Part shown: positions 6,105-11,118 of the stretch, piece after piece
Numbering within the stretch: position 1 is the stretch's first letter
Layout: every line of letters starts with the position of its first letter
Source of the DNA: Streptomyces composti
GTDB lineage: Bacteria > Actinomycetota > Actinomycetes > Streptomycetales > Streptomycetaceae
Direction of reading: 5' to 3'
DNA length: 64,000 nucleotides
NCBI RefSeq assembly: GCF_012034205.1
Contig: NZ_JAATEM010000016.1
Location: forward strand, 62,001 to 126,000
Made by a program: the position numbers and the translations under genes
The notes under the pieces: generated by a model
Told to the model about the DNA's origin: nothing
Database searches by the model: none
Seen by the model: only the letters and a program-made list of their open reading frames with translations

Positions 6105-7409
6105 ATGACCGGCAGGCGACGCAACGGCAGCAGGTTCCTCCCCCGTCTCCTCCCCCGGCCCGGCCGCGCCCTGGCCGCGGGCGCCCTGGCGGCGTGCGCG
6201 CCGCTGATCACCGGCTGCGGGATCGTCCCCGGTGTCACGGGGGGCTCCGGGGACGACCCGATCACGGTGATGACCTGGGCGCCCGAGAGCACCGGTGCCG
6301 ACGACAAGCCCGGGATGCCCGCCCTGGCCCGCGCCTACGGCCGCTGGGTCAACACCCGGGGCGGCATCGACGGCCGCGAGCTGCGGGTGCTGACCTGCAA
6401 CGAGCGCAACGACAGCGTGGCCGTGGCCCGCTGCGCCCGGCGCGCGGTGGAGGAGAAGGCGGTCGCCGTCGTCGGCTCCTACAGCCAGCACACCGACTCC
6501 TTCCTCAACACCCTGGAGAGCGCCGGCATCCCCTACATCGGCGGCTACGGCATCACCAACGACGAGTTCACCAGCCCTCTGTCCTACCCGGTCAACGGCG
6601 GGCAGCCGGCGCTGCTGGCCGGACTCGGGCGGGCGCTGGCGGACCGCTGCGGGCCGGTCGCCCTGGTCCGGCCGGACACCATCGCGGGGGACCAGCTGCC
6701 GCCGCTGCTCGACTCGGGCCTGGCGGCCGGCGGTCACGGGCGGGCCGGCGACCAGCGGGCCGCGGAGGACGCCACCGCCTACGACGACCACGTCCGGCAG
6801 GCCCTCCGGCGGGCCACCGCCGAGCCGGGACGGCCCGGGTGCGTGGTCCCCGCCCTCGGCGACCGCACGCCCGTCTTCATGGACTCCTTCCGCCGGGCCC
6901 GCACGGACTTCCCCGAGGTGCGCACCGCGACCGTGCTCGGCAGCGTCGACCAGACCACGATCGACGCCTCCGGCGGGGCGTCGGGCCCCTACGAGGGCGC
7001 GTATGCCACCGGCTGGTACCCGCAGGCGAGCGACGAGCGCTGGGACGCGATGAAGGAGGTCATCGAGCAGGAGGCGTTCGGCGACACCCGGATCGACCCG
7101 GCGGACGCCGGGGTGCAGACCACCTGGATCGCCTACACCGTCCTGCACCGGGTCCTGGACACGCTCGGCGGCGAGGAGGTCAGCGCCGACGCCGTCACCG
7201 ACGCGCTGGACGGCGGGCTGAAGGTGAGCACCGGCGGCCTCACCCCCACCCTGCAGTGGAAGGCGCGGCAGGAGCTGGCCGCCGCGGGCTTCCCGCGCAT
7301 GGTCAACGCCGATGTGACCCAGCAGGTGGTCAGAGACGGGCGGCTGGTGACGGTCGGCCAGGGCTTCACCGACACCACCGAGACCCTTCAGGCGGCCGAC
7401 CTGCTGTGA
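6105..7409 (+). CDS. Periplasmic-binding-fold lipoprotein (branched-chain amino acid type)
   Basis: A 434-residue exported lipoprotein. The N-terminus is Arg-rich, followed by a hydrophobic stretch and lipobox LITGC with the lipidated Cys at residue 38. The mature part is a type I periplasmic binding fold (Peripla_BP_6), with segments such as VAVVGSYSQHTDSFLNTLES and YEGAYATGWYPQ. It would bind a small ligand outside the membrane. There are no permease or ATPase genes beside it, so it is an orphan binding protein and may serve a sensing role. The convergent neighbour is the repeat-bearing membrane protein. ATG 6105 is used; GTG 6099 is an alternative, and neither has a clear ribosome binding site. 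Confidence 0.85.
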   Translation: MTGRRRNGSRFLPRLLPRPGRALAAGALAACAPLITGCGIVPGVTGGSGDDPITVMTWAPESTGADDKPGMPALARAYGRWVNTRGGIDGRELRVLTCNERNDSVAVARCARRAVEEKAVAVVGSYSQHTDSFLNTLESAGIPYIGGYGITNDEFTSPLSYPVNGGQPALLAGLGRALADRCGPVALVRPDTIAGDQLPPLLDSGLAAGGHGRAGDQRAAEDATAYDDHVRQALRRATAEPGRPGCVVPALGDRTPVFMDSFRRARTDFPEVRTATVLGSVDQTTIDASGGASGPYEGAYATGWYPQASDERWDAMKEVIEQEAFGDTRIDPADAGVQTTWIAYTVLHRVLDTLGGEEVSADAVTDALDGGLKVSTGGLTPTLQWKARQELAAAGFPRMVNADVTQQVVRDGRLVTVGQGFTDTTETLQAADLL

Positions 7410-7479: not shown

Positions 7480-9201
7480 TCACAGCTGGGTCGGCTGGCG
7501 CTCGGTCAGGCCGTACCGGCGCGCCACCGCGTTCCACAGCTGGGAGGCCTTGCCCTTCTGCGCGGTCGCCACCCCGCTGGCCCGGTTCCCGGCCTGGGTC
7601 CGGGGGGTGGAGCGCGCCTGGCCCTTCTTGCACAGCTTGCGCTGCTTCTTGGCGACCTCGTCGGCCCACGCGGCGTAGTGGTTGTCGGCGGAGGCCGAGG
7701 CCCGCCATGCCTTGGTGAGCGCGGTGGTCAGCTCGGTGTGCCGGGGCAGCTTGTCCACGGACAGCTCACGCAGGTCGGTGACCAGTCGGCTGCGCTGCCT
7801 GGCCGCGTCCCGCAGGTTCTTGGACGCCTCGGGCAGATTGCGGCACGCCTTCACGTCGGCCACCGACTTGATCACGGTGGAGCGGCTGTCCCCGCTGGTG
7901 GCGAGCAGCTTGTCCAGCGCCACGGCCTGCTCGCGGGCCGGGTCGGCGGACGGCGAGGGTGAGGGGGAGGCCGACTCGCTCGCGGGAGCGGTGGCCGAGA
8001 CCGTCTGTCTCTTGTCGCCGTCGTCCCCGCCGCCGTCGGCGAGCAGGGCGCCCGCACCGATGCCGACGCCGGCGATCACCACGCCGACCGCGGCGAGCGC
8101 CGGAACGCGTGAGCGGGATCCCCCGCCGCGTCCGCCGCGTCCGCCCGCGCCGACGGAACGGGGCGGCAGGGGTTCGTCGATGCGCGGGAGCTGCTGGGTC
8201 GCCCCCGCGGCGCCGCCGCCGCTGTCGCTGCGGAAGAGATTGTCGAACTCGGCCGGCGGCTGCCGGCTGCCGTCACCGGGCTGTACGCCGTAGGGCCCGC
8301 CGGTGACGGGCGGGATGTACTGGGTGGCCTCGGCGTCGGGATCGCCGGCGGGCGGCTGCGGCCGGCGCAGCGAGCGGGTCTCCTCGGAGTCCTCCCCGGC
8401 GGGCCGCTCCGGCGGCAGCCCGCCCGCGGCGACCGGCGGTATGTACTGCGTCGCGCCCTCGTCGGTGGCGTTGCCGGTCACGGGCGGTATGTACTGCGTG
8501 GCGCCCTCCGGCGAGGCCCCGTGCCCCACGGGGGGTATGTACTGCGTCGCGCCCTCGGGCGAGGCGGCGGGCTGCTGCGGGGCGGCGCCGTAGGCCTGGC
8601 CTCCGCCGTGCGTGCCGTAGCCGGGCTGCTGGGCGGAGTGGCTCCGGCCGCCGTCGGCGGGCGGCAGCGGGCCGGGGCCTGCGTGCCCGGCGGAGGCGGG
8701 CGGCAGCGAGCCCGGCTGCTGGTGCTGCTGCGCGGGCGGGGTGCCGCCGTGCTGGTACGAGGCGGAGGGTGCCGGCGCGCCCTCGGGAGGCAGCGGGCCG
8801 GGCCCGCTCTGCTGCCCGGCCTGGGGCTGCTGCCCGGCCTGGGGCTGCTGTCCGCCCGGCGCGCCCCAGGAGGACGGCGTCCCGGAGTCCCACTGGCCGG
8901 AGCCGTACGCGGCGGACGGAGCCTCGGGCTGGGCCTGCGGCTGCGGCTGGGCCTGCGGCTGCTGCCAGCCCTGGCCGCCGGCCGGGGCCTGCTGCTGCCC
9001 CTCGCCGGGACCCCACGGCTGGCCCCAGCCCTGACCGCCGGGGGGTGCCGAGGCGGGGGGCTGTGCGGACGGCTGGGAGGGCGCGGTGCCGGTCGGGGGC
9101 GTCACGCCCGGCAGCAGGGGCTCACCGCCGTCGGAGGGCAGCACGATGCCTTCGCGCGCGGGGCGCGACGAGGGCTCCTCGCCCTGTCCACTCTGCGTCA
9201 C
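7480..9201 (-). CDS. Single-pass membrane protein with ATQYIPPV repeats and Pro/Gln-rich cytoplasmic arm
   Basis: A 573-residue protein read from GTG 9201, chosen because GGTAGGAG lies 5 nt upstream. Residues 1 to about 360 are Pro/Gln/Gly-rich and probably disordered. They carry four copies of ATQYIPPV (DNA about 8303-8552) plus one variant ATQQLPRI (about 8190). A basic stretch precedes a single membrane helix (VPALAAVGVVIAGVGIGAGA, about 370-390). A Ser/Pro linker and an outer helical domain of about 150 residues follow, with two cysteines (VKACRNLPEA, KKLCKKGQ). Every repeat keeps Thr with Ile or Leu at +3, a pattern typical of kinase sites read by FHA domains. No enzyme domain is present, and the function is unknown. 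Confidence 0.85.
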   Translation of the reverse strand: MTQSGQGEEPSSRPAREGIVLPSDGGEPLLPGVTPPTGTAPSQPSAQPPASAPPGGQGWGQPWGPGEGQQQAPAGGQGWQQPQAQPQPQAQPEAPSAAYGSGQWDSGTPSSWGAPGGQQPQAGQQPQAGQQSGPGPLPPEGAPAPSASYQHGGTPPAQQHQQPGSLPPASAGHAGPGPLPPADGGRSHSAQQPGYGTHGGGQAYGAAPQQPAASPEGATQYIPPVGHGASPEGATQYIPPVTGNATDEGATQYIPPVAAGGLPPERPAGEDSEETRSLRRPQPPAGDPDAEATQYIPPVTGGPYGVQPGDGSRQPPAEFDNLFRSDSGGGAAGATQQLPRIDEPLPPRSVGAGGRGGRGGGSRSRVPALAAVGVVIAGVGIGAGALLADGGGDDGDKRQTVSATAPASESASPSPSPSADPAREQAVALDKLLATSGDSRSTVIKSVADVKACRNLPEASKNLRDAARQRSRLVTDLRELSVDKLPRHTELTTALTKAWRASASADNHYAAWADEVAKKQRKLCKKGQARSTPRTQAGNRASGVATAQKGKASQLWNAVARRYGLTERQPTQL

Positions 9202-9428: not shown

Positions 9429-10814
9429 TCAGGCCGCGGCCTGCAGCCTGGTCCGCGCCCCGAACTCCCGTACCACCGGCTCCTCTCCGTACGGTTCGAG
9501 GCGCTGCTGGAAGTCCTCCAGGTACTCGGCGCCGCGGTTGGAGCGGAGCCCGTCGAGGATCTCCACCGCCTTCAGGCCCGTGGCACAGGCCTGTTCGATC
9601 TCCCGCTGCTGCACCTGGGCCGTGGCCAGCAGCACATAGCCGATGGCCCGCCGCCGCGCCCGTGACTCCGGATGCCCGGCGAGCGACTCGCGCGCATAGC
9701 GCGCGGCGGCCTCCGCCTGCCCGAGATCGCGATGGCAGTGCGCCAGCTCGTCCGCCAGATACGCCTCGTCGAAGTGGGCGATCCACGCCGGGTCGTCCCC
9801 GGACGCCGCGTCGGCCGCCTCCATGGCGCTGATCGCGCGCCCGGCCGCCGCCTGCGCGGCGCGCACGTCGCCCAGTACGGCGTGCCCACGCGCCTCCGCC
9901 GCGTGGAACATGGCCTCCGCGCGGGGCGTGACGCGCCCCCGTGCGCCCTCCTGGGCCGCCCGCGCCAACTGGGCGATCTCCCGCGGGTTGCCGAGCTGGG
10001 CGGCCAGGTGGCTCATGGAGGCGGCGAGCACATAGCCGCCGTATCCGCGGTCGCCCGCCGCCTGCGACAGCCTCAGCGCCTGGATGTAGTAGCGCTGCGC
10101 GAGCCCCGGCTGCCCGGTGTCCACCGCCATGTACCCGGCGAGCTCGGTCAACCGGGCGACCGCGGCGAAGAGTTCACGGCCCACCGACTCCCGGTAGGAG
10201 CCGGCCAGCAGCCCCGACACCACGCTGTTGAGGTAGTGCACGACGACCGGCCGCACATGCCCGCTGCCGTACTGGTGGTCGAGCTCCACCAGCGCCCGGG
10301 TCATGTCCCGTACCGCGGCCACGTCGGACCTGCCCACCCGCGGTCCGGCCGAGCGGGCCACCTGGGCGTCCGGCGCGGAGATCAGCCAGTCCCTGCTGGG
10401 CTCCACCAGCGCCGAGGCGGCGACGGCCGAGCCGGACAGGAAGTCCCGCCGGCCCACGTCGCTGCGCCACAGCTCGCAGACCTGCTCGATGGCCCCCAGT
10501 ACCGTCGGCGAGAACTGGAGACCGACCCCGGAGGCGAGGTTCTTGCCGTTGGCCATACCGATCTCGTCGATCGTGACCGTACGGCCCAGTTTGCGGCCCA
10601 GCGCCTCCGCGATGATCGCCGGGGCGCGGCCCCGTGGCTGCTGTCCGCGCAGCCAGCGGGCCACCGACGTCTTGTCGTAGCGCAGGTCGAGGCCGTGCTC
10701 GGCGCCGCACATGTTGACCCTGCGGGCCAGCCCGGCGTTGGAGCATCCGGCTTCCTGGATGAGCGCCTGCAACCGCTCGTTCGGCTGCCGCGCGACGAGA
10801 GGCCTTGCGGCCAT
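9429..10814 (-). CDS. NsdA-like regulator: N-terminal HTH-type region plus TPR-like repeats
   Basis: This 461-residue cytoplasmic protein starts at an ATG preceded by AGGGGG. The N-terminus (about 1-75: NERLQALIQEAGCSNAGLAR, then KTSVARWLRGQQPRGRAPA) looks like a helix-turn-helix of the kind in Streptomyces differentiation regulators. The rest (about 170-440) consists of helical pairs resembling tetratricopeptide repeats, for example AARYARESLAGHP. This architecture is shared with NsdA, a negative regulator of differentiation and antibiotic production. Orthology to a specific member cannot be settled here. It is divergent from the primase-fold gene across a 304 nt spacer. Confidence 0.8.
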   Translation of the reverse strand: MAARPLVARQPNERLQALIQEAGCSNAGLARRVNMCGAEHGLDLRYDKTSVARWLRGQQPRGRAPAIIAEALGRKLGRTVTIDEIGMANGKNLASGVGLQFSPTVLGAIEQVCELWRSDVGRRDFLSGSAVAASALVEPSRDWLISAPDAQVARSAGPRVGRSDVAAVRDMTRALVELDHQYGSGHVRPVVVHYLNSVVSGLLAGSYRESVGRELFAAVARLTELAGYMAVDTGQPGLAQRYYIQALRLSQAAGDRGYGGYVLAASMSHLAAQLGNPREIAQLARAAQEGARGRVTPRAEAMFHAAEARGHAVLGDVRAAQAAAGRAISAMEAADAASGDDPAWIAHFDEAYLADELAHCHRDLGQAEAAARYARESLAGHPESRARRRAIGYVLLATAQVQQREIEQACATGLKAVEILDGLRSNRGAEYLEDFQQRLEPYGEEPVVREFGARTRLQAAA

Positions 10815-11118
10815 GGCGTAACCCCCTGTGGCTACGGTGCCTGCCCACACACCGAGTTGACGTGCTTTCCGTGGCCGTGCTCCTCACGTCCCGGCGAGGA
10901 GTTTCCGGCCGTGAAGATCAATGCCCCGCGGATGTACCGAAAATGCGGGACTTGTGAGGATTGCCGGGGTGACGGCATGCGAGGTCGTCCGCCGGCCCCA
11001 CTCCTGGCTACCCACCCGCGGGCACCGTTCCCCCCGCGCGCCCCCGCCCGTGCACCCGTGCGCCCCGCACGCGGGGCCGATGCTCCGCCCCCGCGCACGC
11101 GCGCGGGCGTAACCACTG
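10815..11118. other. Divergent intergenic region
   Basis: No gene was seen. A TTGACG hexamer at about 10857 could be a plus-strand -35 box. The right part (about 11020-11110) is extremely C-rich, with short GC repeats. Confidence 0.4.

Follow-up and report, generated by a model that had tools for sequence, protein, structure and literature searches.

The systems closest to the protein described here are the juxtamembrane phosphothreonine (pThr) arms of Mycobacterium tuberculosis PknB, with FhaA, and of Streptococcus pneumoniae StkP, in which a disordered cytoplasmic arm with several threonines adjoins a single membrane helix and docking of FHA or other partners has been proposed (PMC12077195). 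In S. pneumoniae, whose genus lacks FHA domains, the phosphorylated arm recruits division proteins (PMC12077195). Rv1747-type FHA ligands follow the pT+3 rule, a Thr with an aliphatic residue at +3 (PMC5549992), while targets of PknA and PknB feature E-x-x-pT (PMC5845002) together with pT-x-P and an aliphatic +3 (PMC5845002, PMC7164672). Of the phosphopeptides lost when PknA/PknB were inhibited in M. tuberculosis, Thr accounted for 88%, and Leu and Val are enriched at +3 of PknA-dependent sites (PMC5845002/PMC7164672). Streptomyces genomes encode dozens of Ser/Thr kinases and several FHA proteins. Few docking sites are known.

The window, i.e. the whole 64,000-nucleotide stretch of DNA that was analysed, encodes a 573-residue membrane protein (Table 1), here called the array protein, which resembles the PknB and StkP arms in its predicted disordered cytoplasmic arm, single membrane helix and multiple threonines. 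It differs from them in lacking a kinase domain, in the length of its arm (about 370 residues) and in that its sites are copies of one conserved motif. Like Rv1747-type ligands, the sites combine Thr with an aliphatic +3, and the genome itself encodes an ABC transporter with two FHA domains; unlike them, they form an array on a membrane protein instead of a single site, and their binding is putative. The acidic residue before Thr and the aliphatic +3 are shared with PknA/PknB substrates, whereas the array sites carry Pro at +4/+5 instead of +2, and Gln at +1.

Table 1. Features of the array protein and its neighbours, in window coordinates.
Feature	Positions	Strand	Basis or remark
Array-protein gene	7480..9201	minus	573 aa; putative GTG start at 9201
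Conserved N-terminal stretch REGIVLPSDGGEPLLPG, residues 16-32	9106..9156	minus	Regex and alignment
ATQYIPPV copy 1, residues 218-225, Thr219	8527..8550	minus	Open reading frame, alignment
ATQYIPPV copy 2, residues 234-241	8479..8502	minus	Open reading frame
ATQYIPPV copy 3, residues 250-257	8431..8454	minus	Open reading frame
ETRSLRR, residues 274-280, sixth T-x-x-L site	8362..8382	minus	Orthologues have ESTQFLGRR and similar
ATQYIPPV copy 4, residues 292-299	8305..8328	minus	Thr293 invariant in 14-row alignment A2
EFDNLFR, residues 318-324, second conserved linear motif of the arm	8230..8250	minus	
ATQQLPRI, residues 334-341	8179..8202	minus	Thr335 invariant in 14-row alignment A2
Transmembrane helix, residues 369-387	8041..8097	minus	Hydropathy; N-terminal flank Arg-rich
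Putative extracytoplasmic four-helix bundle, about residues 414-573	7483..7962	minus	One invariant and one nearly invariant Cys
NsdA-family TPR-like regulator	9429..10850	minus	NF053720, 1.6e-149; immediately upstream of array gene, same strand
Binding-protein-like lipoprotein (by reading)	6122..7409	plus	Convergent with array gene; a neighbour mainly within the genus

We infer the GTG start at 9201 from its ribosome-binding site and conservation; the codon is preceded by GGTAGGAG and lies two codons inside the listed open reading frame P0001, whose stop is at 7480-7482. The protein matched nothing in Pfam or NCBIfam at 0.01, nor in the plasmid collection searched. Gly, Pro, Gln and Ala abound in residues 1-366, from which Lys and Cys are absent; with AlphaFold pLDDT block means of 34-50 over residues 1-410, the arm is predicted to be disordered, and the outer four-helix bundle is predicted with confidence. 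A sequence-only reading of this DNA had listed four ATQYIPPV copies and one ATQQLPRI copy, most of them with an acidic residue ahead of Thr. All five are present in one minus-strand frame within the predicted disordered arm, and four have the acidic residue, at -2 to -4, ATQQLPRI being the copy without it. That list lacked EETRSLRR (8362-8382), which makes a sixth such site. In all, 6 of the 16 threonines in this arm have I/L/M/V at +3, more than chance would give (hypergeometric P 0.0004). At the sequence level the array is confirmed, and stronger than first stated. Copies 1-3 of ATQYIPPV look like recent tandem duplicates because they share the Ile codon ATA and a 48-bp period.

Within the 6.5-Mb genome, the pattern [AS]TQ[YF][ILM] gave seven matches, four of them in the array gene (reversed-pattern control, 0); by reading, the other three fall within two secreted-type proteins and one antisense-looking open reading frame. 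A search for further proteins of the ATQxIPPV type, suggested by the sequence-only reading, found the strict motif nearly private to the array gene, and its use as a proteome-wide tag was rejected. The looser acidic-T[QR]x[ILM]P gave 10 matches, three in the array gene, against 8 for the reversed control; its other good examples are a few single cases, namely the arm of a carboxypeptidase (L258/L266) and a second array (L262/L265), both described below.

Arm length and order differ widely between orthologues, and residue contexts were therefore compared instead. Four sets were used: 36 same-genus loci (own included) and 80 named Streptomyces loci, which overlap, at least four contigs having equal length in both, and are not independent; 21 loci from 16 further genera within the family; and 11 loci from f3, a more distant family. 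The same-genus loci (L016-L051; G032, matched in its N-terminal part only, was excluded) yielded 33 arms after removal of L023 (frame broken) and of L027 and L042 (contig ends), with the partial arms of L020, L028 and L038 included; the leave-one-out scan took all 36. The 61 named arms are the 80 named loci minus 19 without a start-regex match, many of them at contig ends, and 7 of the 11 distant-family loci were analysed, the other 4 having no phmmer match. Since these arms include sequences related by descent and duplication, the counts outline a pattern and cannot be treated as independent trials.

An aliphatic residue at +3 is far commoner after Thr than after Ser. In the 33 same-genus arms, I/L/M/V follows at +3 for 182/413 Thr vs 31/485 Ser (background 7.8%). 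In the 61 named arms, each of which has 3-8 such Thr, the shares are 36% for Thr (n = 989) and 6.7% for Ser (n = 1235); the 21 other-genus arms give 70/197 Thr vs 15/233 Ser. When only I/L/M were counted, the rise for Thr at +3 was 0.32 and 0.30, compared with maxima of 0.084 and 0.146 at other offsets; the aliphatic excess after Thr sits at +3 and, in Streptomyces, at +6 too, where it is mostly Val. An acidic residue at -1 to -4 accompanies 152/182 aliphatic-+3 sites vs 59/231 other Thr in the 33 arms. Conversely, when sites were picked by context alone (acidic residue, Q/R at +1, I/L/M at +3, P/A/G at +4), position 0 was Thr in 119/125, 262/267, 29/41 and 4/4 cases in the four sets, i.e. Thr in 414/437 and Ser in 0/437, the first two sets overlapping. 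Under the looser context Q-x-[ILM]-P, with no acidic residue required, Ser occurred in 3/121, 9/255, 0/35 and 0/13 (12/424). The leave-one-out scan found Thr in 117/118 cases when six other positions matched, and in 155/193, with Ser once, when five did.

Copies that have drifted elsewhere keep Thr and +3 intact, such as eight EATTVLPP[VI] in L051 and six EATAL[MI][PS]PV in L049. Beyond the genus, acidic-(0-3)-T-x-x-[ILM] is present in 18/21 arms from 16 genera, against 2.8 in shuffled arms; the acidic form is missing from 3/21, and no site is present in L224, which is truncated by a contig end. In the distant family, PTQALPP[AV] and HTQ[AS]IPRV are kept in 4/7 arms, with one site in L056 and none in L055 and L057. 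Poor conservation of Thr and +3 in orthologues, named beforehand in the sequence-only reading as telling against its claim, was looked for; both positions were found to be kept, and the claim was not refuted on this count. The way the orthologues evolved gives strong support, across several sets that overlap in part, to its motif logic of Thr, aliphatic +3 and a preceding acidic residue, and selection on Thr and +3 appears visible in the arm.

A profile of the outer bundle matches 61/61 family genomes searched (17 genera) and 42/296 genomes of the class; some of the class matches are weak and confined to the membrane part. The proteins of seven loci (L187, L188, L189, L191, L192, L195, L200) have, ahead of the bundle homologue, a membrane helix and a divergent protein-kinase domain. 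Pfam kinase families did not match these fused domains, and a single-sequence PDB search with one of them gave weak kinase matches (best E 0.0097); they were assigned as kinases because they share GG.G-, GD....N- and DCD-type motifs, and because a profile search at E 0.01 or better matched 153 PDB sequences, the best 60 of which (best E 2e-6) are protein kinases, including PknA and PknE. The array protein itself has a predicted disordered arm and no Pfam match to a kinase domain; only homologues of its outer domain carry one. Since these homologues place the kinase domain on the arm's side of the helix, the arm is probably cytoplasmic and the bundle extracytoplasmic.

Enrichment at +3 was absent from the paralogues, whether kinase-fused (24/143 Thr vs 11/90 Ser), amidase-linked (9/135 vs 8/109) or other (8/98 vs 14/113). 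The bundle aligns with the up-and-down four-helix ligand-binding domains of Tar, Tsr and PcaY_PP at Z 8.5-10.6 and 7-14% identity, domains from which the array protein differs in having one transmembrane helix. A clear fold relative was not found with Foldseek, where no chain fell below E 0.4 (best E 0.43), or with VIA-align, where the best row was a designed protein at Z 11.5, a value common for helical bundles.

The genome offers both writers and readers for such sites, with 30 protein-kinase matches (27 over the cut-off) and 10 FHA domains over the cut-off, 7 of whose loci show the GR..S..H..NG-type pThr-binding signature by a simple regex while 3 do not. In the C-terminal parts of its own kinases, the +3 rule is weak (81/511 Thr vs 49/436 Ser, with 9 of 30 loci dropped for want of an HRD match and one kinase, represented by the overlapping L225 and L234, having its sites counted twice). 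Sites of related form do occur in two kinases: PTSMLPP in the linker of the kinase at the fhaA-pknB locus, and DADPTQVLP and ADPTAVMPPV in another kinase, near which an FHA domain was matched on the contig. Between the gene for the FHA x2-ABC transporter and a gene for a Ser/Thr kinase lies one for a 320-aa protein that has seven sites of the PT[HQRE]V[VM] type, the three genes forming a same-strand run (L265:8750-13181). A search of 31 genomes, this one among them, gave homologues in 17, and several of the homologues have a single such site or none; the protein is a candidate second pThr array in a kinase-FHA setting.

On balance, we lean towards the explanation that the array protein is a kinase-less membrane adaptor that is phosphorylated in trans and recruits pThr readers. 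Its outer part would be a four-helix-bundle domain whose family also occurs in fusion with divergent membrane kinases, while several acidic-x-Thr-x-x-[Ile/Leu/Met] sites would sit on its disordered arm in the cytoplasm. One or more Hanks-type Ser/Thr kinases may phosphorylate the arm threonines, on which an FHA-domain protein or another pThr reader could then dock, and the multiple copies may provide avidity and tolerance to changes in copy number. This docking reading appears well supported as sequence logic and is putative as biochemistry. Speaking against it, the Pro at +2 that marks mycobacterial kinase targets is rare: of 356 sites in the named arms, 6 have Pro there and 317 have Y, Q or F, although Streptomyces kinases may not follow this mycobacterial signature. 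The reading makes the array protein a concrete, mutable candidate hub, with a bundle in every family genome searched and an arm selected at Thr and +3. The Thr-versus-Ser and +3-offset comparison could be applied to whole actinobacterial proteomes in the search for other pThr docking arrays.

The FHA reading is hard to separate by sequence from a simpler one, in which the threonines are multi-site kinase targets without an FHA reader, Thr and +3 being kept for the kinase. Phosphorylation would then alter the arm's charge and behaviour, or the arm would serve as a sink or gauge of kinase activity. The 27 kinase domains over the cut-off provide candidate writers, PknA and PknB prefer Thr and PknA-dependent sites have an aliphatic +3 (PMC5845002, PMC7164672), and the pneumococcal arm recruits division proteins where FHA domains are lacking (PMC12077195). 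As kinases themselves favour Thr with an aliphatic +3, conservation alone does not point to an FHA reader. We regard this alternative as unlikely, though it must be taken seriously; FHA domains are present in the genome, and the one other clear array adjoins both an FHA gene and a kinase gene. Another possibility is a phosphorylation-independent linear motif, an extended ATQYIPPV bound by a folded partner with Thr kept for a hydrogen bond. It would account for the conservation of the Streptomyces motif over eight residues, with +2, +4, +5 and +6 conserved as well as Thr and +3, and it agrees with the fact that no phosphosite of this protein was seen. An FHA domain is not known to need these further positions. 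However, Thr, +3 and usually Pro at +4 survive drift of the flanks (TALMPPV, TTVLPPV, PTQALPPA, DETEYLPAY); the acidic residue ahead of Thr is usually retained and, as noted above, Ser never takes position 0 in the strict context, so that direct binding seems rather unlikely to us.

Two further explanations would remove phosphorylation from the account altogether. Streptomyces O-mannosylate outer proteins rich in Thr and Pro, and the repeats would be glycosylation sites if the arm lay outside the cell. This is very improbable given the Arg-rich flank before the helix, the kinase domain that homologues carry on the arm's side of it and an N-terminal sequence in which no signal peptide is visible by eye. 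Nor is the +3 rule known as a glycosylation rule. The 48-bp period of copies 1-3 could also suggest neutral slippage within a G+C-rich coding region as the source of the repeats. Such an origin is hardly credible for the array as a whole, because the acidic-Thr-x-x-[ILM] form recurs at 18 of 21 loci in 16 other genera and partly in a second family, far beyond the shuffled expectation, and because, even in an alignment of Streptomyces proteins, the motif is kept within an arm whose other parts mostly vary in sequence and length.

The gene neighbourhood changes the choice of partner for the preferred adaptor. The sequence-only reading had suggested that the adjacent lipoprotein, which has no Pfam or NCBIfam match at 0.01, might supply an outside signal. 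It is present in 76 of the 80 named Streptomyces loci, and the full order ABC transporter, Prim-Pol, NsdA-like, array gene, lipoprotein, SCO4402 family, purU is found in 52/80. The suggestion is not supported, since the lipoprotein gene is convergent and was not found beside the orthologue in 20/21 other-genus loci (mostly with ~0.9-1 kb of downstream flank, so that genes farther away would be missed) and in 11/11 distant-family loci. The NsdA-family gene, in turn, precedes the array gene in 66/80 named loci (many of the rest being contig ends) and, on the same strand, in 18/21 other-genus and 10/11 distant loci; the two genes are a conserved same-strand pair in two families. Among six same-genus loci checked, L048 and L051 lack the lipoprotein and L048 also lacks the NsdA-like gene. 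Because of this synteny outside the genus, the lipoprotein is an unlikely signal partner and the NsdA-family regulator a better candidate, and the conserved pairing suggests where a signal may go. In five other-genus loci (L184, L207, L212, L217, L219), a SCO4402-family gene lies directly downstream of the array gene.

A fuller scheme would have the bundle sense an envelope cue, a trans-acting kinase mark the array, FHA proteins assemble on it, and EFDxLFR tether a partner, possibly the NsdA-family regulator, with the state of the envelope thereby gating development or the production of antibiotics; as a whole, it is speculative and quite doubtful. LAT is a eukaryotic kinase-less single-pass membrane adaptor with a disordered tail of phospho-docking motifs. 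That the array protein is a bacterial counterpart of a kinase-less receptor or a LAT-like adaptor is equally doubtful; LAT works through Tyr and SH2 where Thr and FHA are proposed here, and the comparison is one of analogy, with no homology claimed. The S. coelicolor orthologue likely lies near SCO4400, as the neighbouring gene belongs to the NCBIfam SCO4402 family, and a placement at SCO4110-SCO4114 was dropped for this reason. A literature search for SCO4398-SCO4402 led to one paper, PMC2267785, which contains SCO4401. Searches for the array protein itself returned no paper, a weak absence for an unnamed protein whose locus tag is a guess, and no phosphosite of it was seen in the paper texts covered.

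Several observations on the arm and on related genes deserve mention. The EG[IV]xLPxxG-type N-terminal regex matches 61/61 named Streptomyces arms. EFDxLFR is found by regex in 54/61 named arms and EFDHLFRD in 7/7 distant-family arms analysed, while the looser xLFR occurs in 11/21 other-genus arms; PEDLFRP, a counterpart of EFDNLFR, lies near the N-terminus in some of these. On the window's contig, about 31-34 kb left of the window start, a D-Ala-D-Ala carboxypeptidase gene (L266:451-3648; Peptidase_S11 from about residue 739) encodes a long low-complexity N-terminal arm with DTATQVLP, ADATTALPQ, DQPTAVFK and DQATTMLR. Next to the kinase-fused loci, a VWA-like gene below the Pfam cut-off was found in both of the two tested and a PP2C phosphatase in one; at L192:920-4500, VWA-like, PP2C and divergent-kinase genes stand in a row and the kinase ends in the outer bundle, a candidate receptor-kinase system. 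Finally, the paralogues with a VWDPTA..GGWVR-like N-terminus (L190, L194, L201, L204) adjoin N-acetylmuramoyl-L-alanine amidase genes in 4/4 loci tested, which hints at envelope biology for that class.
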